A stretch of 64,000 nucleotides of DNA from Clavibacter phaseoli (GTDB taxonomy: Bacteria; Actinomycetota; Actinomycetes; Actinomycetales; Microbacteriaceae), in the NCBI RefSeq assembly GCF_021922925.1, contig NZ_CP040786.1:2728001-2792000 (forward strand), in the 5' to 3' direction. The notes below the pieces were generated by a model. That model did not search any database and was not told the origin of the DNA. It was given only the letters and a program-made list of their open reading frames with translations. Made by a program: the position numbers and the translations under genes. Shown in pieces: positions 174-55,484 of the stretch (position 1 is the first letter of the stretch; every line of letters starts with the position of its first letter).

Positions 174-872
174 ATGAGCACCACCACAGCACCCCAGCGT
201 CGTCGCCCCTGGAAGAAGATCGTCGCCACTGGCGCGGTCGTCGCCGTGGGCACGATCATCACCGGCGGCGCGTTCGCCATCTTCACCGACTCCGACACGG
301 CGACCCTCCAGGCCGACGCGGGTCAGCTCGACATCGAGCTGGCCACCGGCGACTACACGGTCGCCGACATCGCGCCGGGCGACACCGTCCAGCGGCCGAT
401 CGTGCTCTCGCTGCCGAACGCGACCAACGACGGGAACCTGGTCACGGCGGTCACCTTCGCGTACGCGGTGAGCGGCCAGACGCTCGGGACCGACGACGCG
501 GCGCTCGACGGGCCGGGCGAGTCGCTCGTGACGGGGACGGACGGGCTGCGCTACACCCTGCAGACCTGCTCCACGGCGTGGACGCCCTCGGCCGCGGACC
601 CCGCGGGCCCGTACACATGCGGCGGCACCACGACCACCACGGGAACCGGCACCCTCGCGTCGCTCACGGGCGCGGGGACGACGTTCACGCCCGCGAACTT
701 CGGCGTGGCGCCGTCGGCCGACGGCACCTTCCCGAGCGACACCGCCGACGTGACGCTCAACACCCTGATGGTCCTGCAGCTGCCCACCACCGCGGACAAC
801 GACTACGAGAACGCGGCCGCGTCGCTGACGTTCACGGCGTCGGCCATCCAGCGCGGCGGCCTGCAGCGCTGA
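174..872 (+). CDS. TasA/camelysin-like secreted surface protein with SipW-type signal
   Basis: A 232-residue exported protein, probably a surface or matrix fibre subunit released by a SipW-type signal peptidase. The N-terminus has basic residues, a hydrophobic core (about 21-38) and then FAIFTDSDTA, the usual form of SipW substrates, followed by a beta-rich body of TasA/camelysin type. The ATG at 174 was chosen because GAGAGGAAG lies just upstream and the signal peptide begins there; a frame open from 30 adds only proline/arginine-rich sequence. It starts a forward cluster with an LPXTG protein, a SipW-like peptidase and a second TasA-like protein. The family call rests on signal-peptide style and context; fibre formation is inference. 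Confidence 0.72.
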   Translation: MSTTTAPQRRRPWKKIVATGAVVAVGTIITGGAFAIFTDSDTATLQADAGQLDIELATGDYTVADIAPGDTVQRPIVLSLPNATNDGNLVTAVTFAYAVSGQTLGTDDAALDGPGESLVTGTDGLRYTLQTCSTAWTPSAADPAGPYTCGGTTTTTGTGTLASLTGAGTTFTPANFGVAPSADGTFPSDTADVTLNTLMVLQLPTTADNDYENAAASLTFTASAIQRGGLQR

Positions 873-880
873 TCGCCTCC

Positions 881-912
881 GACCGGGTCCCGGCACGCGC
901 CGGGGCCCGGTC
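881..912. terminator. Hairpin after the first TasA-like gene
   Basis: A 14-bp stem with one G-T pair (881-894 with 899-912) and a 4-nt loop lies 9 bp after the stop. It probably ends or attenuates transcription between the TasA-like gene and the LPVTG gene, which could set different amounts of the two proteins. Confidence 0.55.
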
Positions 913-996
913 GTCCGGCGTCGCGTCCGCGCGCCGCCCCGCATCACCGCACGACCGCACCACCCCACATCCGTCCCGCCCCCGGAGGACCCGACC

Positions 997-1773
997 ATGC
1001 GCGCACACCGCCGCACCGGCAGCATCGCCGCCGCCGCGCTGTGCCTGGCGCTGGTCGCCGCGGGCCCGGCCGGCCCGGCCGCCGCGGCCGTGGACCCGGC
1101 CGACCTCGAGGTCCGCGAGCTCACCGGCCCCGACATCCCGCTCGACGACCTGGCCCCCGGCGACACCGTCGACTGGGCCGCCGACGTCACCAACGTCTCC
1201 GGAGGGGCGTCGCCGCTCTCCATCCGCCTCGACGCCGTGCGCTCGATGGCCCTCACCGGCGATCCCGAGGGCGGCATCCAGCTGAGCGTCCGACTCTGCG
1301 AGGACGGCTTCGCGACCCTCACGGCGCCCCTGCGGTGCCGCGGACCCGTCGAGCGCCTCGGATCCGGACCCGCCGCGACCCTCGACCGCGTCGTCACGCG
1401 CACCCCGCTCGACGCGGGCCAGACCGTGGGCGTCGCCGTGCGCGTGCGGTTCCCGGCCGGCGCCGACAACGGGATGGAGTCCACCGCCGGAATGGTCCGC
1501 ATCGGCTTCGCCCTCGTCGACGACGCGGGCGCCGGCGCGGATCCGTCCACCGGCGGCGGCACGGGCACGGGGAGCGGCACGGGCACGGGGAGCGGCACGG
1601 GCGCCTCGCCCGCCGGATCCGCCCCCGCCGCCGACGCCCCGCGCGACCTGCTCCCCGTGACCGGCCGCGACATCGCGTCGGCCCTCGCCGGCGCCCTCCT
1701 CGCGCTCCTCGGAGGCGGGATCCTGCTGCTCGCCGGACGCCGTCGACGCCGCACCGCCGAGGCCGCGTCGTGA
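997..1773 (+). CDS. LPXTG (LPVTG) cell-wall-anchored protein
   Basis: A 258-residue secreted protein with a sortase signal. An N-terminal signal peptide (about 1-30, ending near AAAAVDP) is followed by a roughly 150-residue beta-rich body that echoes the TasA-like neighbours (a LAPGDTVDW phrase here, IAPGDTVQR in the first gene). A Gly/Thr/Ser linker (about 188-206) leads to LPVTG (about 220-224), a hydrophobic stretch and an arginine-rich tail, the standard wall-sorting signal. GGAGG precedes the ATG. Its stop overlaps the start of the peptidase gene. Class F sortases prefer LPXTG in studied actinobacteria, so the sortase at 14493-15149 is the likelier partner than the class E enzyme at 54684-55484; that pairing is inference. 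Confidence 0.8.
   Translation: MRAHRRTGSIAAAALCLALVAAGPAGPAAAAVDPADLEVRELTGPDIPLDDLAPGDTVDWAADVTNVSGGASPLSIRLDAVRSMALTGDPEGGIQLSVRLCEDGFATLTAPLRCRGPVERLGSGPAATLDRVVTRTPLDAGQTVGVAVRVRFPAGADNGMESTAGMVRIGFALVDDAGAGADPSTGGGTGTGSGTGTGSGTGASPAGSAPAADAPRDLLPVTGRDIASALAGALLALLGGGILLLAGRRRRRTAEAAS
1558..1602. repeat. 18-bp tandem repeat in the LPVTG protein linker
   Basis: The unit GGCACGGGCACGGGGAGC occurs twice in full with a half copy after it. It encodes a GTGTGS linker between the folded part and the sorting signal. Its length could vary between strains. Confidence 0.8.
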
Positions 1774-2387
1774 CCCGCGTCCGCGCCGCGCGCACCGCCG
1801 ATGCCGGCCCGGCCGGAGCGCAGCCCCGCCGGAGCCACGCCCGCCGCGCGCTCGGCCTCCTCGGCGGGCTCCTCACGGCCGCCGTCGCGCTGGCCGTGAT
1901 CGCCGTCGTCGCGCTCTCCGCGCTCGGCCTCACCCGCTTCGTCCCCGTCCTCTCGAACTCGATGGCGCCCGGCATGCCGGTCGGCTCCCTCGCGATCACC
2001 GCCCCCACGCCCCGCGCGGAGGTGACGACCGGCGACGTCGTCGTCTTCACGGCGCCCATGGGCCCGCGCGTGCGGGTGATCCACCGCGTCACGCACGTCT
2101 TCGGCGCGGAGGACGCCGCGAACCTCGACGGCTGGTCGGCCGACCGCCTCGCGATCCAGACGAAGGGCGACAACAACCCCTCGGGCGATCCGTGGATCGT
2201 CACCATCGGCGACGACGCCGTGTGGGAGCGCACGTCGGTCGTCCCGCTCCTCGGCTGGCCGTTCGTCTGGCTCGGCGACCCCATCACCCGCGCGATCGCG
2301 TTCGCGGTCGTCGGCGCGGCCGGCACCATCTGGCTGCTGACGGTCATCTGGCGTCGCCCGCCGCGACCGACCGAGGGGCCGACCTGA
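1770..2387 (+). CDS. sipW: SipW/ER-type signal peptidase I (S26B)
   Basis: A 205-residue membrane protease expected to cut the signal peptides of the TasA-like proteins beside it. A transmembrane helix (about 28-53) precedes the nucleophile box SNSMAPGM (Ser64) and the RVIHRVTHV box, where His105 sits in place of the Lys of ordinary bacterial LepB; this Ser/His form marks the SipW/archaeal/ER subfamily. A second helix lies near 174-194. The GTG at 1770 overlaps the stop of the LPVTG gene, and the stop overlaps the next ATG, so translation is probably coupled across three genes. The specialised role is inferred from context. Confidence 0.85.
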   Translation: MTRVRAARTADAGPAGAQPRRSHARRALGLLGGLLTAAVALAVIAVVALSALGLTRFVPVLSNSMAPGMPVGSLAITAPTPRAEVTTGDVVVFTAPMGPRVRVIHRVTHVFGAEDAANLDGWSADRLAIQTKGDNNPSGDPWIVTIGDDAVWERTSVVPLLGWPFVWLGDPITRAIAFAVVGAAGTIWLLTVIWRRPPRPTEGPT

Positions 2388-3028
2388 TGCCCCGACATCG
2401 CGCCGCCCCCGTCGCCCCCGCCGCCGCGCCGCACGGCCGCCGCGCCGCCCCTCGGCGGGGCCGCCGTGCCCGGCCCCTGCTCGTGCCCGCCATCGCCGTG
2501 ATCCTGGCGCTGGCGGGCGCCGGCACCGCCTACGCCGTCCTCACCGACCGCGCCACGTCGCGGGTCACCGTGCGCGCCGGCGCCGTGGAGCTCGACTGGG
2601 GCGGGGGCGGAGCGGATCAGCTCGCCGTGCCGATCACCGGGCTGCGGCCGGGCGAGGCCCAGGTGCGGCTCGTGGACCTCGCGAACACCGGCACCGTCGC
2701 GGTGTCGGAGCTCGTCGTCACGCTCGGCGGCACGGCCGTGGCGAGCACGTCCGACGGCCTCCAGGTGGCGTTCGACCGCTGCCCGGTGGCGTGGACCGGC
2801 GCGCCCGGCACCGCGGTCTGCGCGGGCACGACGACCTCCGTCGTGGCCGACCGCCCCGCCGCGGGCCGCGTCGCGCTGCCGGACTCCCCCGCCCGCGCGG
2901 TCGGCGGACGCGACCACCTGCGCATCACGGTGCGCCTGGCCGCGTCGGCGCCCGCGACCGCCCAGGGCGCGACCGGATCCGTGACCCTGCGGGTCGACGG
3001 GAACCAGCGCCCGGGCACGCAGCGCTGA
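2387..3028 (+). CDS. Second TasA-like SipW-dependent secreted protein
   Basis: A 213-residue exported protein. After a basic N-terminus (1-30) comes a hydrophobic segment (about 31-49), then AVLTDRAT, matching the F/V-x-T-D pattern of the first gene in this cluster. The body has beta-rich phrases (ITGLRPGEAQVRL, LANTGTVAVSELVV) typical of TasA/camelysin-like proteins. The ATG overlaps the peptidase stop (ATGA), so enzyme and substrate are coupled. It may be a minor fibre subunit or an anchor-type protein; nothing in the sequence settles which. Last gene of the cluster. Confidence 0.68.
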   Translation: MPRHRAAPVAPAAAPHGRRAAPRRGRRARPLLVPAIAVILALAGAGTAYAVLTDRATSRVTVRAGAVELDWGGGGADQLAVPITGLRPGEAQVRLVDLANTGTVAVSELVVTLGGTAVASTSDGLQVAFDRCPVAWTGAPGTAVCAGTTTSVVADRPAAGRVALPDSPARAVGGRDHLRITVRLAASAPATAQGATGSVTLRVDGNQRPGTQR

Positions 3029-3172
3029 CCCTCCCCGGGACCCATGGGCACCGGATCGGACCCCCAGGGTCACGAAAGCATCACGGGACCCATCGGTCCG
3101 ACGAGGGGCGCCGAAGGACCTTGCGACTCCAACCGGCGACCACGTCGGCCGCCCTGACCAGAAGGATCCATC

Positions 3173-3865
3173 ATGCGCAACCTCACCAAGTCCGTCTTCG
3201 GCCTCGCCACCGCGGGCTTCCTCGTCGTCGGCCTCGCGGCCTGCTCGACCCCCGCCGAGACCCCCTCGTCCTCCGCGTCCTCCGCCCCGTCCGCGACCGC
3301 CACGACCGAGGCCAACCCGACGCCGCTCGCGACGATCCCCACCCTCACCGGCGTCAACACGCAGGTCACCCTCGACTCCGGCTTCACCGGCGCCCTCACG
3401 ACCCTCGGCCTGACCCCCGGCGTCATCGGCGGCGCGACCCTCGACGGCGCCACCGGCACCCTCGCGTTCCCCATCACCGGCGGCAACGTGAAGTACTTCG
3501 ACCCCGAGCAGTCCTACCGCCCCTACGTCCAGGGCGAGATCGACCACGCCGGCTCCGGCATCAGCCTCACCGCCGGCGACACCGTCGTGAAGCTCACCGA
3601 CTTCGTCATCGACCCCGGCACCAGCCGCCTCACCGGCTCCGTCCAGGTCGGCGACGGCGCGGTCATGAACGACGTCTACATCTTCAACCTCGACGGCACG
3701 ACCCTGAAGCCCCTCCAGATGGAGGGCGACAACGCCGTCCTCGAGGGCACCACCGTCAAGGTCAGCCCCGACGCCGCCGCCCTGCTCAACAGCACCTTCG
3801 GCACCGACGCGGTCACCGACGAGCTCGTCGTCGGCATCGCCAAGATCACCGTCAACACCAAGTAG
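3173..3865 (+). CDS. Secreted lipoprotein of unknown function
   Basis: A 230-residue lipoprotein. The signal peptide ends in a VGLAAC lipobox (Cys about 24), followed by a Ser/Ala/Thr-rich linker (25-50) and a beta-rich domain of about 180 residues with no cysteine. AGAAGG upstream of the ATG serves as ribosome-binding site. I recognise no family with confidence. Position directly after the TasA/SipW cluster suggests a role at the same surface. A strong hairpin follows the stop, so the transcript ends here. Confidence 0.65.
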   Translation: MRNLTKSVFGLATAGFLVVGLAACSTPAETPSSSASSAPSATATTEANPTPLATIPTLTGVNTQVTLDSGFTGALTTLGLTPGVIGGATLDGATGTLAFPITGGNVKYFDPEQSYRPYVQGEIDHAGSGISLTAGDTVVKLTDFVIDPGTSRLTGSVQVGDGAVMNDVYIFNLDGTTLKPLQMEGDNAVLEGTTVKVSPDAAALLNSTFGTDAVTDELVVGIAKITVNTK

Positions 3866-4199
3866 CACCCACCCGGGGCTCGACCCCCGGCACAGCACCA
3901 CCGCGAACGGCCCGGCCCACGACGCCGGGCCGTTCGTCGTGCGCGCGGCGGACGCGGCCGATCGGGCTCCCGGACCCGGACGCAGGGAAGCCCCCTCGCA
4001 TGCGCAGCGAGGGGGCCCCTGCCGGGCGACTCGGGTCCCGGTGCATGGCCTTCGGAACGGAGGGGCGATCGGGCGGGCGGGCAGCCGATCGGGTGGACGA
4101 TCGGGTCGGGCCCCGCGCGCGAGCACTACCAGGAAGGCCCGGTGAGCGCCGCATCCATGCACATCGGAGGCTCCCAGCCGCGGGTCGCATCGTACGTGC
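3866..4199. other. Non-coding 334-bp interval with a second hairpin and CGATCGGG repeats
   Basis: Besides the terminator at 3905-3935 it holds a second hairpin (3990-3999 with 4007-4016, 7-nt loop) and four copies of CGATCGGG at 3959, 4066, 4086 and 4098. Three of these lie within 40 bp just upstream of the next lipoprotein gene and could be a regulator site. No credible gene was seen here. Confidence 0.45.
3905..3935. terminator. Intrinsic terminator after the lipoprotein gene
   Basis: A perfect 12-bp stem (3905-3916 with 3924-3935) with a 7-nt loop starts 40 bp after the stop, followed by a short T-containing stretch. Confidence 0.75.
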
Positions 4200-5183
4200 A
4201 TGAGCGTTCAACGAATCCCCGTCTCCCTGCTCGCCCGCTGCACCGCCACCCTCGCCGGCGTGGTCGTGCTCGCCGGATGCTCGACCCCCGGCCAGGCCTC
4301 GCCCGCCTCCGACGGCGCCCCCGACGCGACCACCGCCGTCGCCACGACCGCGCCCGCCGCGTCGGGCGACGGCGGCACCACGGCCGACCGCACCGACTCC
4401 GACGCCGAGGACCGGAACGCGGACACCATCTCGACGCTGTTCACCGCCGCGTTCCCGGATCCCGCCTCCGCCGGAGCGCAGGCCGCCGTGCAGGCGGTCG
4501 TCGCCCCCGACTCCACCGCGGACGGGGTCGGCGCGAAGGCCGGACCCAGCGGGCTCCTCGACGAGTTCGCCGCCGCCCACCAGCGCGTCCCCGGCGCGCA
4601 GGCCGTGATCAAGCACATCGCCGCCGACGGCGACCTCGTGGCCGTGCACTGGCAGGTCGCGGCGGACCCGGACGACGAGCGCACCGGCGAGGCCGCGGTC
4701 GACCTCTTCCGCCTCGCGGACGGCAAGGTCACCGCCCGCTGGTCGTTCGAGCAGGACATCCCCCAGGGGACGCCCGCCAGCGGCAACACGAACACCATGT
4801 TCAGCGACCTCTACCAGGGCGCGCCCGACGCGCCCGAGCTGACCGAGCAGCAGGAGGAGGCGAACCGGCAGCTGGCCGTGGGCGCCTACGACACGCTCTT
4901 CCGGGATCACGACGCGAGCGTGCTCGACCGCTCCTTCGACCCGGCGTACCTGCAGCACAACACGGTCGCCGCGAACGGCACGGCGGCGCTCAAGGTGTTC
5001 TTCTCCGGCGGCGCGCGCTTCCCGGCGCAGCAGTCCGTGATCTCGATCGCCGACGACGACCTCGTCTGGACCTTCTCGCAGCCCGTGGGCGCGAAGGCGG
5101 ACGACCCGTTCCTCGCGGCCGACATCTTCCGGGTCGACGGCGGCCTCATCCGCGAGCACTGGGACGTGGTGCCCGCGAGCTGA
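4200..5183 (+). CDS. Lipoprotein with two tandem SnoaL/NTF2-like domains
   Basis: A 327-residue lipoprotein. The signal peptide ends in VVLAGC (Cys about 26), followed by an acidic Ala/Thr/Asp-rich linker. Two halves then end in similar phrases: DLFRLADGKVTARWSF (about 165-180) and ADIFRVDGGLIREHWD (near the C-terminus). This is the closing strand pattern of SnoaL-like NTF2-fold proteins, so a duplicated domain is likely. Such domains bind small hydrophobic ligands or act as small isomerases/cyclases; the ligand is unknown. Upstream GGAGG is 30 nt from the ATG, so the start is less certain than the domain call. Confidence 0.68.
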   Translation: MSVQRIPVSLLARCTATLAGVVVLAGCSTPGQASPASDGAPDATTAVATTAPAASGDGGTTADRTDSDAEDRNADTISTLFTAAFPDPASAGAQAAVQAVVAPDSTADGVGAKAGPSGLLDEFAAAHQRVPGAQAVIKHIAADGDLVAVHWQVAADPDDERTGEAAVDLFRLADGKVTARWSFEQDIPQGTPASGNTNTMFSDLYQGAPDAPELTEQQEEANRQLAVGAYDTLFRDHDASVLDRSFDPAYLQHNTVAANGTAALKVFFSGGARFPAQQSVISIADDDLVWTFSQPVGAKADDPFLAADIFRVDGGLIREHWDVVPAS

Positions 5184-5198
5184 CCGGGCGCGCGCACG

Positions 5199-5242
5199 GA
5201 CGCGACGACGGGACGGCCACGCGGCCGTCCCGTCGTCGCGTC
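5199..5242. terminator. Bidirectional terminator between convergent genes
   Basis: A perfect 20-bp stem (5199-5218 with 5223-5242) with a 4-nt loop. It ends the forward lipoprotein gene and overlaps the TGA of the reverse LamG-like gene (5241-5243), so it serves both directions. Confidence 0.85.
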
Positions 5243-6149
5243 AGCGGCCGGCGTTGTAGTGGTTCGTCACCTGCGTCGCGGTGAGCGCCGTCTTGTACAC
5301 GGCCGCGAAGCGCATGCTGCCGACGAAGTAGTTGGATCCGGCGTTCGGCCACCCCGACGTGTTGTCGTAGCCGATGCGCCAGTAGCCCGTGTTGCTCTCC
5401 GGCGCCGTGAACGCCGTGTTGCCGGCCACGCGCGCGCCGTCGAGGTAGAGGGTCATGCCCGTGCTGGGCGACATCGTCGCCACGACGTGGTGCCAGGCGC
5501 CGTCGGCCACGTTGGCCGAGCTCGTGATGGTCTGGTACCCGCCGTTGTAGGTGCCGAAGGCCAGCTGGCCCGTCGTCGAGATGTAGGTGTGGCGGTCGTA
5601 GGCCGACGAGGATCCGGACTGCGAGTTGCCGAAGCCGATGAGCTTGCCGCCCTTGACGGTCGTCTTGAACCACACCTCGGTGCTGAACGTCGCCGGGCCC
5701 TGGGCCTGCAGCGCGTTCGTGACGAAGTCGCTGCCGTCGAGGACGTACGCGCCGCCGGCGTCGCGCGCGCAGGCCCGGCTGCTCGTCGTGTCGCTCGTCA
5801 TGCCGCCGCGGTACGTGCCGGGGTAGGAGCCTGTGGCGGCGTCGACGGCGGTCGTGGACCCCGTCGCCTCGTTGAGGGGGTACGCGAAGAGCGCGTTGGC
5901 CTTGTCGGCCGCGAAGGCGCTCGAGCAGGTGAAGAACGCGGCGGACGACGCGGCGGTGTTGTTGGTGTTCTGGATCGCGGCCGTGTACGCGCCGTTCGTG
6001 CCGGGCGCGAGGAGGAGCACGGCGCCGAGGGCGGCCGCGGCGACCGAGGCGGCGATCCCGGCGAGGCGGGGCGCGCGGCGCGCGGCCGCGTCGGCGGCGG
6101 GGGCGGAGGCGCCGGCGCGGCGGCCGAGGAGGCGGGCGACGACGCTCAT
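5241..6149 (-). CDS. Secreted LamG-like jelly-roll protein
   Basis: A 302-residue exported protein. An N-terminal hydrophobic segment (about 27-50) is followed by YTAAIQNTNNTAAS, which matches ITNDTNTAAS in the protein at 7290-7958, so both are probably cut by the peptidase between them. From about residue 85 to the end it has concanavalin/LamG-like features (EVWFKTTVKGGKLIGFG, DGAWHHVVATMSP, TLYLDGARVAG), a fold that usually binds glycans or proteins at the surface. The ATG at 6149 overlaps the stop of the peptidase gene and has AAGGAGGAG upstream; the longer open frame belongs to the peptidase region. Ligand unknown. Confidence 0.8.
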   Translation of the reverse strand: MSVVARLLGRRAGASAPAADAAARRAPRLAGIAASVAAAALGAVLLLAPGTNGAYTAAIQNTNNTAASSAAFFTCSSAFAADKANALFAYPLNEATGSTTAVDAATGSYPGTYRGGMTSDTTSSRACARDAGGAYVLDGSDFVTNALQAQGPATFSTEVWFKTTVKGGKLIGFGNSQSGSSSAYDRHTYISTTGQLAFGTYNGGYQTITSSANVADGAWHHVVATMSPSTGMTLYLDGARVAGNTAFTAPESNTGYWRIGYDNTSGWPNAGSNYFVGSMRFAAVYKTALTATQVTNHYNAGR

Positions 6150-7192
6150 GCGCGGCGCTCCTCCTTCTCGGCGGGCAGGCCGACGACCAGCGTGTAGAGG
6201 AGGGGGACGGCGCAGCAGCCGTAGAAGAGGATCCAGCCCCAGAGCGGCAGGTCCAGCGTGGAGGAGATGTCGTGGAACTGGCCGGCATCGCCCGCGGGGG
6301 CCGTGATCGTGCCGACCTGGCCGGCGGCGAGCGTGACGTGCGTGCCGCCCTCGGCCGCGATGCGGATGGGGAGCATGCCGGTCGAGACGACGGTCGCCTC
6401 CACGTCGCTGCCGCGGGTCACGGCGTCGAGGACGACGAGGCCGACGAAGGGCTTGAGCAGGAAGACCGTGAACGCGGCGACGAGCGCGCCGCCGAGCATG
6501 CGCATGGAGGCGCGGTGCGTGGGCGAGCCGATGAGGCGGGTCAGGATCATGACGATGACGAGGCCGGCGAGCATCAGCGGCACGCCCTTCGCCAGCCAGC
6601 CGAAGCCGGGGAGGATCGTGGTGGCCTGGCCGACGAGGTGCGCCTGGTCGGTCTTCCACGGGTCGACCGCGCCGTTGATGTCGCCCTGGGTGGTGATCCC
6701 ATCCGCGTCGACCGCGATGACGCGGTGCGTGTAGGTCTCGTCCGGGGTGGTGGAGGGGTGGAAGCTGACGACGTCGCCGACGTGCAGGTCCTCGAGGAGG
6801 ACGGGGGTCGTGAGCAGCAGCGTGCCGACGGGGGCCGTGGTGCCCATCGACGGCGTCTGCACGACGAACCAGCGGCCGCCGGACGCCTGGAAGAGGAGCG
6901 TCGCCGCGACGAGGGCGGTGAGGAGGACGGTCGCGGCCCACATGACGACGGTGCGACGGCGGATCGAGCGGGAGGTGCGCGCGGCGCGGCGGCTCGCACC
7001 CCGCGCGGGGAGCGCGGGGAGGACCGGGGCGGCCGGGTCGAGGTGCCGGTCATCCGGGAGGACCTCCAGCTCGGGGAGGAGCTCCAGCTCGAGGTCGAGC
7101 TCGAGGTCGAGCTCGAGGGCGTCGATGGCCGTGGTGGCGATCGTCGTGGCGTCGGCCTTGGGGGCGGTCGAGCGGTCCTGGATGTCGGTCAT
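6146..7192 (-). CDS. Signal peptidase I, SipW-like, with acidic Leu-rich N-terminal extension
   Basis: A 348-residue membrane protease, longer than usual. Residues 26-45 form an alternating Glu/Asp-Leu stretch; a helix (about 83-102) precedes the nucleophile box TPSMGTTAPVG (Ser115) and the TYTHRVIAV box (His156), so it is the Ser/His SipW class. Three further hydrophobic segments lie at about 205-221, 232-250 and 316-340. The ribosome-binding site is GGGAGGTG. It sits between its two likely substrates (7290-7958 upstream, LamG-like downstream) and overlaps the latter by ATGA. The cytoplasmic acidic extension is absent from the paralogue at 1770-2387. Confidence 0.85.
   Translation of the reverse strand: MTDIQDRSTAPKADATTIATTAIDALELDLELDLELELLPELEVLPDDRHLDPAAPVLPALPARGASRRAARTSRSIRRRTVVMWAATVLLTALVAATLLFQASGGRWFVVQTPSMGTTAPVGTLLLTTPVLLEDLHVGDVVSFHPSTTPDETYTHRVIAVDADGITTQGDINGAVDPWKTDQAHLVGQATTILPGFGWLAKGVPLMLAGLVIVMILTRLIGSPTHRASMRMLGGALVAAFTVFLLKPFVGLVVLDAVTRGSDVEATVVSTGMLPIRIAAEGGTHVTLAAGQVGTITAPAGDAGQFHDISSTLDLPLWGWILFYGCCAVPLLYTLVVGLPAEKEERRA
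7091..7114. repeat. 12-bp direct repeat encoding the Glu/Leu stretch
   Basis: GAGGTCGAGCTC is repeated twice head to tail, with part copies on both sides. It encodes alternating Glu/Asp and Leu near residues 26-35 of the signal peptidase, so this acidic segment probably arose by slippage. Confidence 0.7.
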
Positions 7193-7231
7193 GGCGCACC
7201 TCCCGGGTCAGGGGCTTCGAGGGGATGGGGT

Positions 7232-7257
7232 GCGGGGCCGCCTCTCGGCGGCCCCGC
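7232..7257. terminator. Hairpin between the SipW substrate and peptidase genes
   Basis: A perfect 11-bp stem (7232-7242 with 7247-7257) with a TCTC loop follows the reverse gene 7290-7958 by 33 bp and lies ahead of the peptidase ATG at 7192. It probably reduces read-through, giving more substrate than enzyme. Confidence 0.65.
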
Positions 7258-7289
7258 GGGGGATCCAGCGGGGGACTGGAGGGGGAGGA

Positions 7290-7958
7290 CTAGCTGGCGA
7301 AGGTCCAGGTGAGGGGCAGCGAGGCGCCGAGGCCCTGGTACGTGTTGCCGGCGGAGGAGTCGAGCGTGACCGCGAAGGTGAAGTCGGTGCTCGCGTTGGC
7401 GGCGAGGGCCGTCAGCGTCTTGGCGGAGGAGCCGGCGAGGGCGGCGGCGGTGCCGGAGTAGACGGGCGTGGTGCTGCCGGCGGCGGTGATCACGACGTTG
7501 AGCTTGGAGCAGAAGTCCGTGGCCGAGCCGTTGACGGTGCCGTTCTTGCTCTGGGTGCAGGTGGCGCCCGGGGTCAGCGTGAAGGTCGAGGCCTTCGAGG
7601 TGCCGACGTTCTTGATGTTGACGACGCTGGTGACCGTCTGGCCGGGGATCATCGTGGTCGAGCCGCCGAACTTGTTGATCGTGGAGCAGGTGGCGGCGTT
7701 GGAGTCGACCCCGCCGGTCGCGCTCGTGCTGAGGCAGGTGACGGTCGCGGCGCCGTTGGCGCCGGCCTGCGACTCCTGCATGACGAGCGAGCCGGAGGCC
7801 GCCGTGTTCGTGTCGTTGGTGATGGAGGCCACGAAGCCCGACAGCGTGCCGGACATCGAGACGGAGAGGAGGACGGCGGCGGCGACGCCGGTGGCGATCG
7901 CGAGGGGCGCGAAGCGGACGCGCTTGGTCTTGGCGGCGGGGGCGATGTGGTTCGACAT
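7290..7958 (-). CDS. SipW-type secreted beta-rich surface protein
   Basis: A 222-residue exported protein, first gene of the reverse cluster. A basic N-terminus and hydrophobic core (about 18-40) lead into FVASITNDTNTAASG, the pattern shared with the LamG-like protein. The mature part is Ser/Thr-rich and beta-rich with four cysteines that could form disulfides (near VTCLST, AATCST, GATCTQ, DFCSK). The ATG was placed at 7958 because the signal peptide begins there; a frame open to 8543 crosses the promoter and the divergent regulator. Likely a surface-fibre or coat protein, by analogy with TasA/camelysin families; exact family not certain. Confidence 0.72.
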   Translation of the reverse strand: MSNHIAPAAKTKRVRFAPLAIATGVAAAVLLSVSMSGTLSGFVASITNDTNTAASGSLVMQESQAGANGAATVTCLSTSATGGVDSNAATCSTINKFGGSTTMIPGQTVTSVVNIKNVGTSKASTFTLTPGATCTQSKNGTVNGSATDFCSKLNVVITAAGSTTPVYSGTAAALAGSSAKTLTALAANASTDFTFAVTLDSSAGNTYQGLGASLPLTWTFAS

Positions 7959-8196: not shown

Positions 8197-8688
8197 ATGA
8201 CCCCGGAGAGAACAGCTCCCCGCCGCGACGACACCGCGGTGGAGGCCCTCGCGAACGCGCTGCACATGGTCGAGACCGCGCAGCGCCACCTGCGCACGCG
8301 CATCGCGCAGGACATCGGCGTCAACGTGACCGACCTCACGGTGATCAGCGTGGTCGGCGACCTCGGCCGCATGACCCCCAAGCTGCTCGCCTCCGAGATC
8401 TCGATGGGCACGGGCGCGGTGACCGCCGTGATCGACCGGCTGGTCGGCGCCGGGCACCTCGACCGCGTGCCCAACCCGAAGGACCGTCGCAGCGTCTTCG
8501 TCGAGCTCACGGATGCGGGACGCGCCACGCTCGCGCGCATCACCGCCGACTACCGGACGGCGGCGGCCGTCGCGCTGCGGGCGTCCCCCGCGCTCGGCAC
8601 CGAGGAGACGGCCGAGGACATCGCGCGCGCCGCGATCGCGATGACGGCGCACACCATCGACGGGCCGGACGCGGGCGCATCCGCGTGA
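8197..8688 (+). CDS. MarR-family transcriptional regulator
   Basis: A 163-residue winged-helix protein. Residues about 48-110 carry the MarR pattern: TDLTVISVVGDLGRMTPKLLA (helix), a recognition helix near GTGAVTAVIDRLVGAGHLDRV, and a wing with NPKDRRSVFVELTDAG. Long helices at both ends form the dimer interface. It is divergent from the SipW/LamG cluster with a palindromic operator candidate between, so that cluster is a possible target. The GTG of the Nudix gene overlaps its stop. The ATG at 8197 was chosen over an upstream one because the longer form adds only low-complexity sequence. Confidence 0.82.
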   Translation: MTPERTAPRRDDTAVEALANALHMVETAQRHLRTRIAQDIGVNVTDLTVISVVGDLGRMTPKLLASEISMGTGAVTAVIDRLVGAGHLDRVPNPKDRRSVFVELTDAGRATLARITADYRTAAAVALRASPALGTEETAEDIARAAIAMTAHTIDGPDAGASA

Positions 8689-14492: not shown

Positions 14493-15149
14493 TCAGCCCA
14501 CGGGCTCCGCGAACACGACGCGGTTGTCCTCGTAGTGGCCCACGCTGCGGTCGAAGACCCCGCCGCAGGTGATGAGGCGGAGCTGGTCGGTGGGCTGCGC
14601 GCCGAACACGCGCGCGGTCGGGAAGTCGGCCTTGGCGAAGTCCGCGACCTCGGTCACGGCGTAGCGCGTGGTGCCGCCGTCGACGTCCTGCACGGCCACC
14701 TCGTCGCCCACGCCGAGCTCGGCGAGCCGGGCGAACGCGGCCGGTCCCACGCGGGAGTCGACGTGGGCGGCGATCACGGTCGGACCGCGTCCGCCGGGGC
14801 GCCCGCCGCCCGTGAACCAGCCGACGTCGTCGAAGTCGACGGGCACCTCCATGCGGCCGTCGGGGGCGATGCCGAGGTCGATGAGCGGCCGGTCGAGGTC
14901 GATGGCGGGGATGGCCACGCGCGACGGGGTCGCGCCGATCCCCTGCACGACCTGCGGCGAGGTCGTGGGGGCCGGGCTCGCGGTCGGGACCGGGGCGGCG
15001 GACGCGGGCGGCCTCGCGGAGTCGGCGCCCGGCACCGGATCCGCGGGCGCGCATCCCGCGAGGACGGCCAGCGGGATCAGCGCGCCCGCGAGCACCGCGG
15101 CCCGGCGGGCGCGCCGCGCGGGCGACGCGTCCGCCGGGGAGCGGTGCAT
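14493..15149 (-). CDS. Class F sortase, lipoprotein form
   Basis: A 218-residue transpeptidase that should join surface proteins to the cell wall. The catalytic triad is seen as His129 (VIAAHVDSR), Cys195 (RLITCGG) and Arg210 (YEDNRVV); size and the ITCGG form point to class F. Unusually the N-terminal hydrophobic segment ends in AVLAGC (Cys33), a lipobox, followed by a Pro/Ala/Thr-rich linker, so it may be held by a lipid. It lies 5 bp after the CHRD gene in one operon under an ECF-type promoter. Candidate partner for the LPVTG protein at 997-1773 (inference). Confidence 0.85.
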   Translation of the reverse strand: MHRSPADASPARRARRAAVLAGALIPLAVLAGCAPADPVPGADSARPPASAAPVPTASPAPTTSPQVVQGIGATPSRVAIPAIDLDRPLIDLGIAPDGRMEVPVDFDDVGWFTGGGRPGGRGPTVIAAHVDSRVGPAAFARLAELGVGDEVAVQDVDGGTTRYAVTEVADFAKADFPTARVFGAQPTDQLRLITCGGVFDRSVGHYEDNRVVFAEPVG

Positions 15150-15154
15150 GCGGA

Positions 15155-15868
15155 TCAGGACTCCTGCGCGCGGTGGCGGCGCATCAGCACGACGCCGGCC
15201 GCGGCGAGCGCGACGGCACCGCCGCCCGCGACGAGCGGGAGCGCGGACGAGGTGGAGGTGGCGGATCCCCCGGCGCCCGTGTCGACGCCGCCGACCGGCA
15301 CCTGCGTCAGCTGGCCGCGGACGGCGCCCGCGGTGAACGACGCCGTGTGGGTGTCGGCCGCGAAGGCGGACGGGTCGGCCTCGATCTGCGCGACCGTGAA
15401 GCCCGTGCCGGTGTCCTGGTCCTCGGCGCTCATGATCCCGGTGGTGAAGGGTCCCTGCATGCAGCCGGAGCTGGTGCGGGTACCGTTCCCGGCGTCGACC
15501 GGGTTGGGGAACGCGATGCGGGGCGGGCCGGCCTTGCCGACGGCGGCCTGGTGGATGTGCGTGGCCGTCTTCGCCGGGCTCTGGTACTCGCCGGTGACGC
15601 CCGTGAGGGTGATGTCGTAGCAGATGGTGTTCGACGCGGAGTCGAGGCGGAGGTCGAACCGGCCGGTCGCGCCGGGCTCGCCGGGCGTCGCGACGCCGTC
15701 GGCGTTGAGCACCTGGTCGGGCGTCGCCATGACGGTGAACGCGCTCGTGAAGCGCTCCGGCTCGGGGACGGTCGTCTCGGCGGACGCGGGCGTCGCGACG
15801 AGGAGGGTGAGGGCGGCCGCGGCGGCGCCCCCGATGGTCGTGTTCCGGACGAGTCTCGTGTGCGTCAT
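15155..15868 (-). CDS. Secreted CHRD-domain protein with C-terminal membrane anchor
   Basis: A 237-residue exported protein. The signal peptide (about 1-30) ends near ASAETT. A CHRD domain spans about 38-190, with FTVMATPDQV, ICYDITLTGV, ATHIHQA and AVRGQLTQV in the expected order. A Gly/Ser/Thr linker leads to ALPLVAGGG plus a hydrophobic stretch and MRRHRA; this resembles a sorting signal, but the Thr-Gly of LPXTG is missing, so it may be a plain membrane anchor or a variant site for the sortase beside it. The ATG at 15868 was chosen as the start of the signal peptide. First gene of its operon. Confidence 0.78.
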   Translation of the reverse strand: MTHTRLVRNTTIGGAAAAALTLLVATPASAETTVPEPERFTSAFTVMATPDQVLNADGVATPGEPGATGRFDLRLDSASNTICYDITLTGVTGEYQSPAKTATHIHQAAVGKAGPPRIAFPNPVDAGNGTRTSSGCMQGPFTTGIMSAEDQDTGTGFTVAQIEADPSAFAADTHTASFTAGAVRGQLTQVPVGGVDTGAGGSATSTSSALPLVAGGGAVALAAAGVVLMRRHRAQES

Positions 15869-54683: not shown

Positions 54684-55484
54684 TCAGCCCGCCTTCGCGA
54701 ACGACGTGCCGGCCAATGCGGCGGGCGTGGACGCATCGGAGCGGGGCTGCCAGGACTCGAAGACGCTGTACGCGATGACGCGCTCGGCGGCGGAGAAGAG
54801 CGGGTTGCAGCTCGTCATCGTGAGGATGCGGTCACCGGGCTGCGCGTCCGGTGCCTGGGGCACCTCGTCGAGCACGTCGACTCCGGTGGGCTTCACGTAC
54901 TCGAGTGTACGGAAGCGGTACGTGTACCAGCCGTCCTGCGTCTCGACCACGATGGCGTCGCCCACCCGCAGGTCGGTGATCTGGTTGAAGGGCTTGCCGT
55001 AGGTGGTGCGGTGCGCCGCGACGGCGAAGTTCCCGACCTGCCCGGGCATCTGCGTCTCGCGGTAGTGGCCGATCTTGCCGTGGTTGAGCACGCTCGAGAG
55101 GCCGACCCCCGTCGCGACCGGCACGACGTAGTCGGGCCCGAATCGCGGGATGTAGATGTTGCCGAAGTCCGTGGCATCGGTGAAGGGCGCCTGGGTGATG
55201 ACCGGATCCCCCGGCGCCGCGGGCGACGCGGACGGGTCGGGGGTGGTCGCCGCGTCCGGCGCGGCCGTGGCCCAGCTCCGGCTGTTCTCCAGGGCCTGGT
55301 CGCGCTGGCCGCTGCTGACCACGATGTCGTTGAACCACAGCTGCCACCCCAGGAACAGCATGATCAGCACGCCGGCCGTGAGGAGCAGCTCGCCGAGGAC
55401 GCCGACTGTGCCGAGCAGCGCATCCCCCCGCCTGCCGCGGCGCCGCGTCGCGCGGCGAGAGGGGGCGGGATCCTGAGCGCTCAT
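54684..55484 (-). CDS. Class E sortase
   Basis: A 266-residue transpeptidase. A basic N-terminus and membrane helix (about 25-50) precede a Pro/Ala/Ser/Asp-rich linker and the sortase barrel with His158 (VAAHRTTYG), Cys226 (TMTSCNP) and Arg235. The TxTxCNP form and the operon position beside crgA/pabA are typical of class E, which prefers LAXTG motifs and is the housekeeping sortase of many actinobacteria. Divergent from crgA; a 52-residue membrane gene follows. Confidence 0.92.
   Translation of the reverse strand: MSAQDPAPSRRATRRRGRRGDALLGTVGVLGELLLTAGVLIMLFLGWQLWFNDIVVSSGQRDQALENSRSWATAAPDAATTPDPSASPAAPGDPVITQAPFTDATDFGNIYIPRFGPDYVVPVATGVGLSSVLNHGKIGHYRETQMPGQVGNFAVAAHRTTYGKPFNQITDLRVGDAIVVETQDGWYTYRFRTLEYVKPTGVDVLDEVPQAPDAQPGDRILTMTSCNPLFSAAERVIAYSVFESWQPRSDASTPAALAGTSFAKAG

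Follow-up and report, generated by a model that had tools for sequence, protein, structure and literature searches.

A 64,000-nucleotide stretch of the Clavibacter phaseoli genome (C1:2728001-2792000 of 3.23 Mb; hereafter the window) carries, side by side, two gene clusters that we read, with a probability of about 0.58, as independent export-and-assembly cassettes for TasA-type donor-strand fibres, one with a donor-only LamG starter and the other with an acceptor-only wall base. All seven genes singled out by an earlier sequence-only reading lie within 174-7958, and the seven reading frames of both clusters were confirmed from the sequence. That reading had assigned two TasA/camelysin-like proteins, an LPVTG protein and a Ser/His peptidase to the forward cluster, and a substrate, a second Ser/His peptidase and a LamG protein to the reverse cluster; the frames and the matches to PF12389 and PF10502 (forward) and to PF10502 and PF13385 (reverse) bear this out. 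Both of the SipW systems that it counted and all four of its forward genes are present in the window, but the genome holds three SipW-type peptidase loci, and the first gene of the forward unit, a large lectin-like/DUF7507 gene, lies outside the window.

In the mechanism that we propose, the subunits Sub1, Sub1b and Sub2 would each carry a SipW-type signal, and the peptidase encoded alongside would cleave them. As in TasA, cleavage would release an N-terminal strand that fits into the groove of the following subunit. The LamG protein of the reverse cassette would start the fibre and remain at the end where it began, whether as a lectin-like distal tip, perhaps binding glycans, or as a TapA-like membrane-side primer. 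The LPVTG protein of the forward cassette would take up the final unpaired strand and, via sortase, link the fibre to the wall. Because the LamG protein has a donor strand and no TasA core, it could give a strand and not receive one; because the LPVTG protein has a TasA-like core and no donor strand, it could receive a strand and not give one. Since these two proteins belong to different cassettes, each fibre, presumed to be polar, would have one specialised end from the set.

A donor-type segment common to Sub2 and the LamG protein

The reverse cassette consists of Sub2 (7290-7958), the signal peptidase Sip2 (6146-7192) and the LamG protein (5241-6149), all on the minus strand, with the Sip2 and LamG genes overlapping by 4 bases at the starts used here. 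The LamG protein combines a SipW-type signal, a donor-like segment and a LamG domain (PF13385, 79 bits, cut-off 27.6). Its profile aligned with that of Sub2 in hhalign at E 6e-7, most strongly over the N-terminal part. There, 15 residues of the LamG protein (AYTAAIQNTNNTAAS, 5946-5990, minus strand) correspond to the predicted donor segment of Sub2 (GFVASITNDTNTAAS, 7794-7838, minus strand), which follows a predicted cleavage site and has an aromatic second residue. The motif reads NDTNTAAS in Sub2 and NTNNTAAS in the LamG protein, so that the shared (N)TxNTAAS motif of the sequence-only reading was slightly misspelt but real and, as the following comparison indicates, far above chance.

Sub2 and the LamG protein could both be anchored in 67 loci, giving 62 distinct pairs. 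Counted from the predicted cut, residue two was aromatic in 67/67 Sub2 and 67/67 LamG sequences, and in all 69 anchored Sub2 rows. Identity between the partners averaged 7.8 of 15 residues, compared with 2.2 for position shuffles (2000 shuffles, highest 5.4), and from position 16 onwards only 0-12 of the 67 pairs were identical at any position. The register was chosen by the aromatic residue; 17 alternative registers gave at most 3.7 and best-of-register shuffles at most 5.1 (500 shuffles), although these shuffle and register controls do not remove the relatedness among loci. Locus-specific co-evolution of the donor segments was rejected, the difference between own pairs (7.8) and mixed pairs (7.3 of 15) being too small to use. 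In TasA, the donor strand spans residues 28-38, F29 lying in the subunit interface, and the N-terminus of TapA resembles this strand (PMC9674648, PMC10151520). The LamG protein likewise has an N-terminus similar to the donor strand of its subunit, which ties it to the substrate as had been proposed.

The common segment might instead be a recognition site for Sip2, in which case the LamG protein would be a second secreted client of the peptidase, released or held near the surface, outside any fibre. The stretch does start where the cut is predicted, and the TasA site that, according to PMC10269814, is cut poorly by Escherichia coli LepB and cut by SipW includes a Phe at P2'. The low locus-specific co-variation in the donor pairs also fits a recognition site. 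However, conservation extends 15 residues beyond the cut and then ends sharply, which exceeds the length that a signal peptidase is known to require, and in TasA the corresponding stretch serves as donor strand and is similar to the TapA N-terminus. We consider this client explanation unlikely and favour a segment that would be donated to a subunit.

The fold of Sub2 is consistent with donor-strand assembly. Neither Pfam nor NCBIfam matched Sub2 above any cut-off, and a search of the PDB with its sequence profile recovered no TasA, so that a TasA identity by sequence was rejected and the link is one of fold only. The TasA/camelysin-like fold anticipated for the substrates was examined in the predicted structure of Sub2, for which TasA structures were the best matches, above all other matches listed; the absence of such a fold, which would have refuted the sequence-only reading, was not observed for Sub2. 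This ranking argues against an amorphous or wall-bound coat in which the TasA-like fold would be an ordinary Ig-like adhesin domain, as does the retention of the donor-type N-terminus and the neighbouring peptidase across genera; we regard such a coat as quite improbable.

Sip2 exceeded the cut-off of PF10502 (32.5 bits, cut-off 22.9) and fell narrowly below that of TIGR02228 (48.6 against 51.85 bits). Its Ser115 and His156, predicted to be catalytic, are invariant in 10 relatives. Four membrane helices are predicted in Sip2 (structure model of mean pLDDT 57.6), together with an additional outer beta domain, which is Ig-like and spans residues 249-315 between helices 3 and 4 (6248-6448, minus strand); in a structure search, this domain accounted for the matches listed, all of them generic. 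Assignment of the LamG protein to the TafC fimbrial family (NF052521) was rejected: the match (25.3 bits, cut-off 410) is C-terminal and covers the LamG part only, and among 60 relatives some match was obtained in 34 and the cut-off was reached in none, so that this model is merely a LamG marker. A search of the open-licence literature for Taf names returned nothing relevant.

Fusion of Sip2 to the LamG protein

Scanning named genomes with the Sip2 profile identified 94 relatives, and the best 80 of them make up the sample, which is thus Sip2-selected and rich in Curtobacterium. In six of these 80 loci, Sub2 is followed by a single frame running from Sip2 through LamG: L143, L148 and L150 (Actinomycetospora), L149 and L153 (Sinomonas) and L155 (a metagenome-assembled actinomycete). 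Five of the fused frames were re-read and are free of stops, and the sixth, that of L153, is open from 5908 to 7695. By reading, all six fused proteins keep the TPSMG and THR motifs. In all six, a hydrophobic stretch precedes the inner segment, whose second residue is aromatic; position four is Ala in five and Gly in L143. A Pfam scan of five fused proteins gave a LamG row and no signal peptidase row, and the L148 protein scored 40.1 bits with TIGR02228, below the cut-off of 51.85. In the part of the fused frames that was scanned, none of the internal starts was flagged as having a clear ribosome site; separate internal starts are nevertheless possible. The best tree (70 of 79 rows after removal of near-copies) requires three label changes for the origin of the fusion, and a one-origin tree was not rejected (p-AU 0.265, 30 chosen rows). 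Among 396 genomes of the phylum, nine had any match to a fused protein, and no single match extended across both halves among the three candidates scored per genome.

The fusion bears on which end of the fibre the LamG protein would occupy. Rather than forming a distal tip, it could act at the base as a TapA-like primer or chaperone kept at the membrane close to Sip2, with the fused form reflecting work at the peptidase. TapA co-localises with the membrane and acts as the N-terminal donor to TasA (PMC10151520). A fusion would also couple LamG protein and peptidase in a one-to-one ratio, which would suit a primer. On the other hand, the inner aromatic residue retained in all six fused forms suggests that the LamG protein may still be freed, and a lectin-type fold would be odd for a pure chaperone. 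This explanation, which differs from the reading that we prefer solely in the fibre end occupied by LamG, is a serious possibility, albeit with less than an even chance. Under the preferred donor-strand reading, we propose only tentatively, and hold it to be rather unlikely as a whole, that the fused peptidase-lectin would cut its own C-terminal half free and so start a fibre, acting as a self-releasing peptidase-adhesin within a directional TasA-type system of split parts, in which a lectin initiator would only donate and a wall base would only accept.

The forward cassette and its candidate wall base

The forward cassette, on the plus strand, comprises within the window Sub1 (174-872, 232 amino acids), the LPVTG protein (997-1773), the SipW/archaeal-type signal peptidase Sip1 (1770-2387) and the second subunit Sub1b (2387-3028), with overlaps of 4 bases between the LPVTG protein and Sip1 and of 1 base between Sip1 and Sub1b. 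Both subunits are of TasA/camelysin type: they exceed the cut-off (22.5) of the Pfam camelysin family PF12389 (Sub1, 31.3 bits; Sub1b, 22.8 bits), all eight alignment rows of Sub1 relatives match this family, and hhalign related Sub1b to Sub1 at E 2e-8. The predicted donor segment of Sub1 (IFTDSDTATLQADAG, 279-323, plus strand), in which FTDS is invariant in 8/8 rows, lies directly 3' of the predicted cut; that of Sub1b (2537-2581, plus strand) was placed from the alignment of its relatives, again after a predicted cleavage site. The SipW-dependent signal model TIGR04088 (cut-off 19) was missed by Sub1 (15.2 bits) and Sub1b (14.0 bits) and gave no row for Sub2 or the LamG protein. Sub1 and Sub1b also have a common C-terminal QR-G-QR-like ending that is largely kept in aligned relatives.

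Sip1 exceeded the cut-offs of both PF10502 (26.9 bits, cut-off 22.9) and TIGR02228 (63.7 bits, cut-off 51.85), and reading of its sequence identified NSM and HRV as the predicted active-site motifs. Together with the PF10502 match of Sip2, this supports a SipW-type peptidase in each cluster. The model for the SipW of Bacillus, NF046067 (cut-off 190), gave 28.5 bits for Sip1 and no row for Sip2.

The LPVTG protein consists of an ordinary-looking signal peptide, a TasA-like core and a wall-sorting signal, and has no donor motif. By reading, its C-terminus has LPVTG (1651-1665, plus strand), a hydrophobic stretch and an arginine tail; VTGRD is invariant in eight rows, one of which reads LAVTG. 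These features support the wall-anchor candidate of the sequence-only reading, with scores below the formal anchor cut-offs (PF00746, 14.6 against 20 bits; TIGR01167, 13.9 against 15.9 bits). PF12389 gave no row at E 1 or better for the LPVTG protein or Sub2. In hhalign, the LPVTG protein profile matched Sub1 (E 2.9e-6) and Sub1b (E 4.5e-5), with the similarity beginning after the donor segment; three controls gave E 0.056, 0.25 and 0.21, the first and last of them with this profile, and Sub1 against Sub2 gave E 0.088. Among 297 genomes of the order, the profile matched 12 (own included) at 16 places. Nine of the 15 non-self places were inspected, in five genomes: eight hold a TasA-like protein, five of these with an adjoining SipW-type peptidase, and the ninth (L198) has an anchor-like protein beside a SipW-type peptidase. 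The other six places match mainly the C-terminal half including the sorting signal and may reflect only that signal. The genome has two sortase matches, both inside the window: one (PF04203, 75.4 bits) beside a CHRD-domain protein at 14493-15868 (minus strand), about 6.5 kb from the reverse cassette, and a second at 54765-55157 (minus strand).

Upstream of Sub1, outside the window, a 1134-amino-acid protein has, besides four DUF7507 stretches (301.8 bits), a part resembling an L-type lectin that stays below its cut-off (36.6 against 78.3 bits), giving the forward cassette a lectin-like neighbour of its own. The order lectin-like gene, Sub1, LPVTG protein, Sip1, Sub1b was found in five Clavibacter stretches (L162, L165, L166, L167, L168), with the lectin-like gene called as two pieces in L165 and cut by the stretch end in L162. 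It was also found with other flanks in L157, which belongs to a second genus and shares its genus label with a Rathayibacter genome. L043, L044 and L164 have the same order, the large upstream gene being recognised by eye only.

Two independent cassettes and their relation to known systems

Presence of the clusters across Microbacteriaceae, a check that had been suggested, was scored in 150 sampled genomes of the family. The Sub1 profile matched eight (own included), three of them weakly in unrelated cytochrome-like genes; the Sub2 profile matched 15 (own included; 12 strong and 3 weak), with one match in an unrelated membrane protein. Sip2 was present in 18/18 genomes of the genus (own included), once as a fragment at a contig end. 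Three genomes (G021, G024, G033) have a Sub2 match and no Sub1 match, and G154 has a Sub1 match and is absent among the Sub2 matches. A joint machine of forward and reverse clusters was rejected, since Sub1 and Sub2 matches occur in different genomes of other genera. For the same reason the LPVTG base and the LamG partner most likely belong to different fibres, and the earlier suggestion of a wall-anchored partner and a lectin-like tip in one fibre was not borne out.

The reverse unit occurs as a cassette of its own in several actinobacterial families, frequently accompanied by a divergent MarR gene. In the window, the MarR-type regulator (8197-8688, plus strand; PF01047, 39.0 bits, cut-off 24.6) adjoins Sub2. 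A scripted survey of the best 80 loci found Sub2, Sip2 and a separate LamG gene in 60, in addition to the six fusions; in six more, Sip2 and LamG are present and the contig ends on their 5' side. LamG was flagged before Sip2 in three, truly so in L137 and L156; we take the flag in L080 to be an artefact of stop-to-stop frames (Sip2 match 6001-6950, with LamG after it in the same contig, L165). The remaining five had no LamG match, L117 and L146 lying at a contig end and L122, L144 and L152 having another third gene. Of 74 loci, 49 have a MarR-like gene called next to Sub2 on the opposite strand (46 by a narrower count), and genome G013 has the reverse cassette, MarR included, twice.

Several loci depart from the common layout. 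In Curtobacterium L122 (6819-8114) and L152 (6762-8096), the third gene has a donor-like start and PF06439-type domains in place of LamG. The LamG-type protein ahead of Sip2 in L137 (878-2338) and L156 (930-2276), with a Pfam LamG match in L156 only, appears by eye to have LamG between two pilin-like-domain halves. In L164 (genome G016), Sip2 and LamG are present with no Sub2 called before them; a transposase-like gene stands there, and this strain may therefore have a disrupted cassette. L117, a short contig, has two Sub2-Sip2 pairs in tandem (544-3571). Two lipoprotein-like genes between the cassettes of the window (3173-3865 and 4200-5183; one of no known family, one SnoaL-like) are also present in other Clavibacter maps inspected. 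Elsewhere in the genome, further LamG-type stretches lie in large open frames (G000:C2:54055-54567, on a small contig, and G000:C1:2003087-2003356). The third SipW-type locus (G000:C1:1515770-1518769) encodes a peptidase, a TIGR04089 protein, a camelysin-type protein (PF12389, 22.8 bits, cut-off 22.5) and a 298-amino-acid protein whose N-terminus looks similar. TIGR04089 (exp_by_SipW_III) describes SipW-associated proteins with an alternate-type signal peptide; it gave 184.4 bits at this locus (cut-off 60) and no match at E 1 or better among nine window proteins scanned.

TasA, SipW, TapA and the camelysins are already known. Like the tapA-sipW-tasA operon of Bacillus subtilis, the reverse cassette has a SipW-type peptidase beside a TasA-fold subunit, overlapping genes, and a minor partner whose N-terminus resembles the subunit donor strand. 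However, the partner is a LamG protein and not a V-set Ig protein such as TapA, additional helices are predicted in Sip2, which also has an outer beta domain, and the order is subunit, peptidase, LamG, often with a MarR gene opposite. Sub1, Sip1 and Sub1b resemble the Bacillus cereus cluster sipW-calY1-bc_1280-calY2 (TasA, CalY, CapP) in having two camelysins and one peptidase; the forward cassette adds the LPVTG protein with its TasA-like core and the lectin-like/DUF7507 protein. The archaeal bundling pili of Pyrobaculum (7ueg) are also among the closest known systems. In the open-licence literature, which lacks most subscription journals and preprints, we found no description of a LamG partner, an LPVTG acceptor or a peptidase-client fusion, no paper combining SipW with LamG, and no study of TasA-type donor-strand fibres in actinobacteria.

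Such fibres have been worked out in Bacillus and are known from archaea. The cassettes would offer a clean test of how they start, end and attach to the wall, with a starter that would only donate, a wall base that would only accept, tip domains that can be swapped and a peptidase naturally fused to its client. Much of this set is found in free-living relatives.
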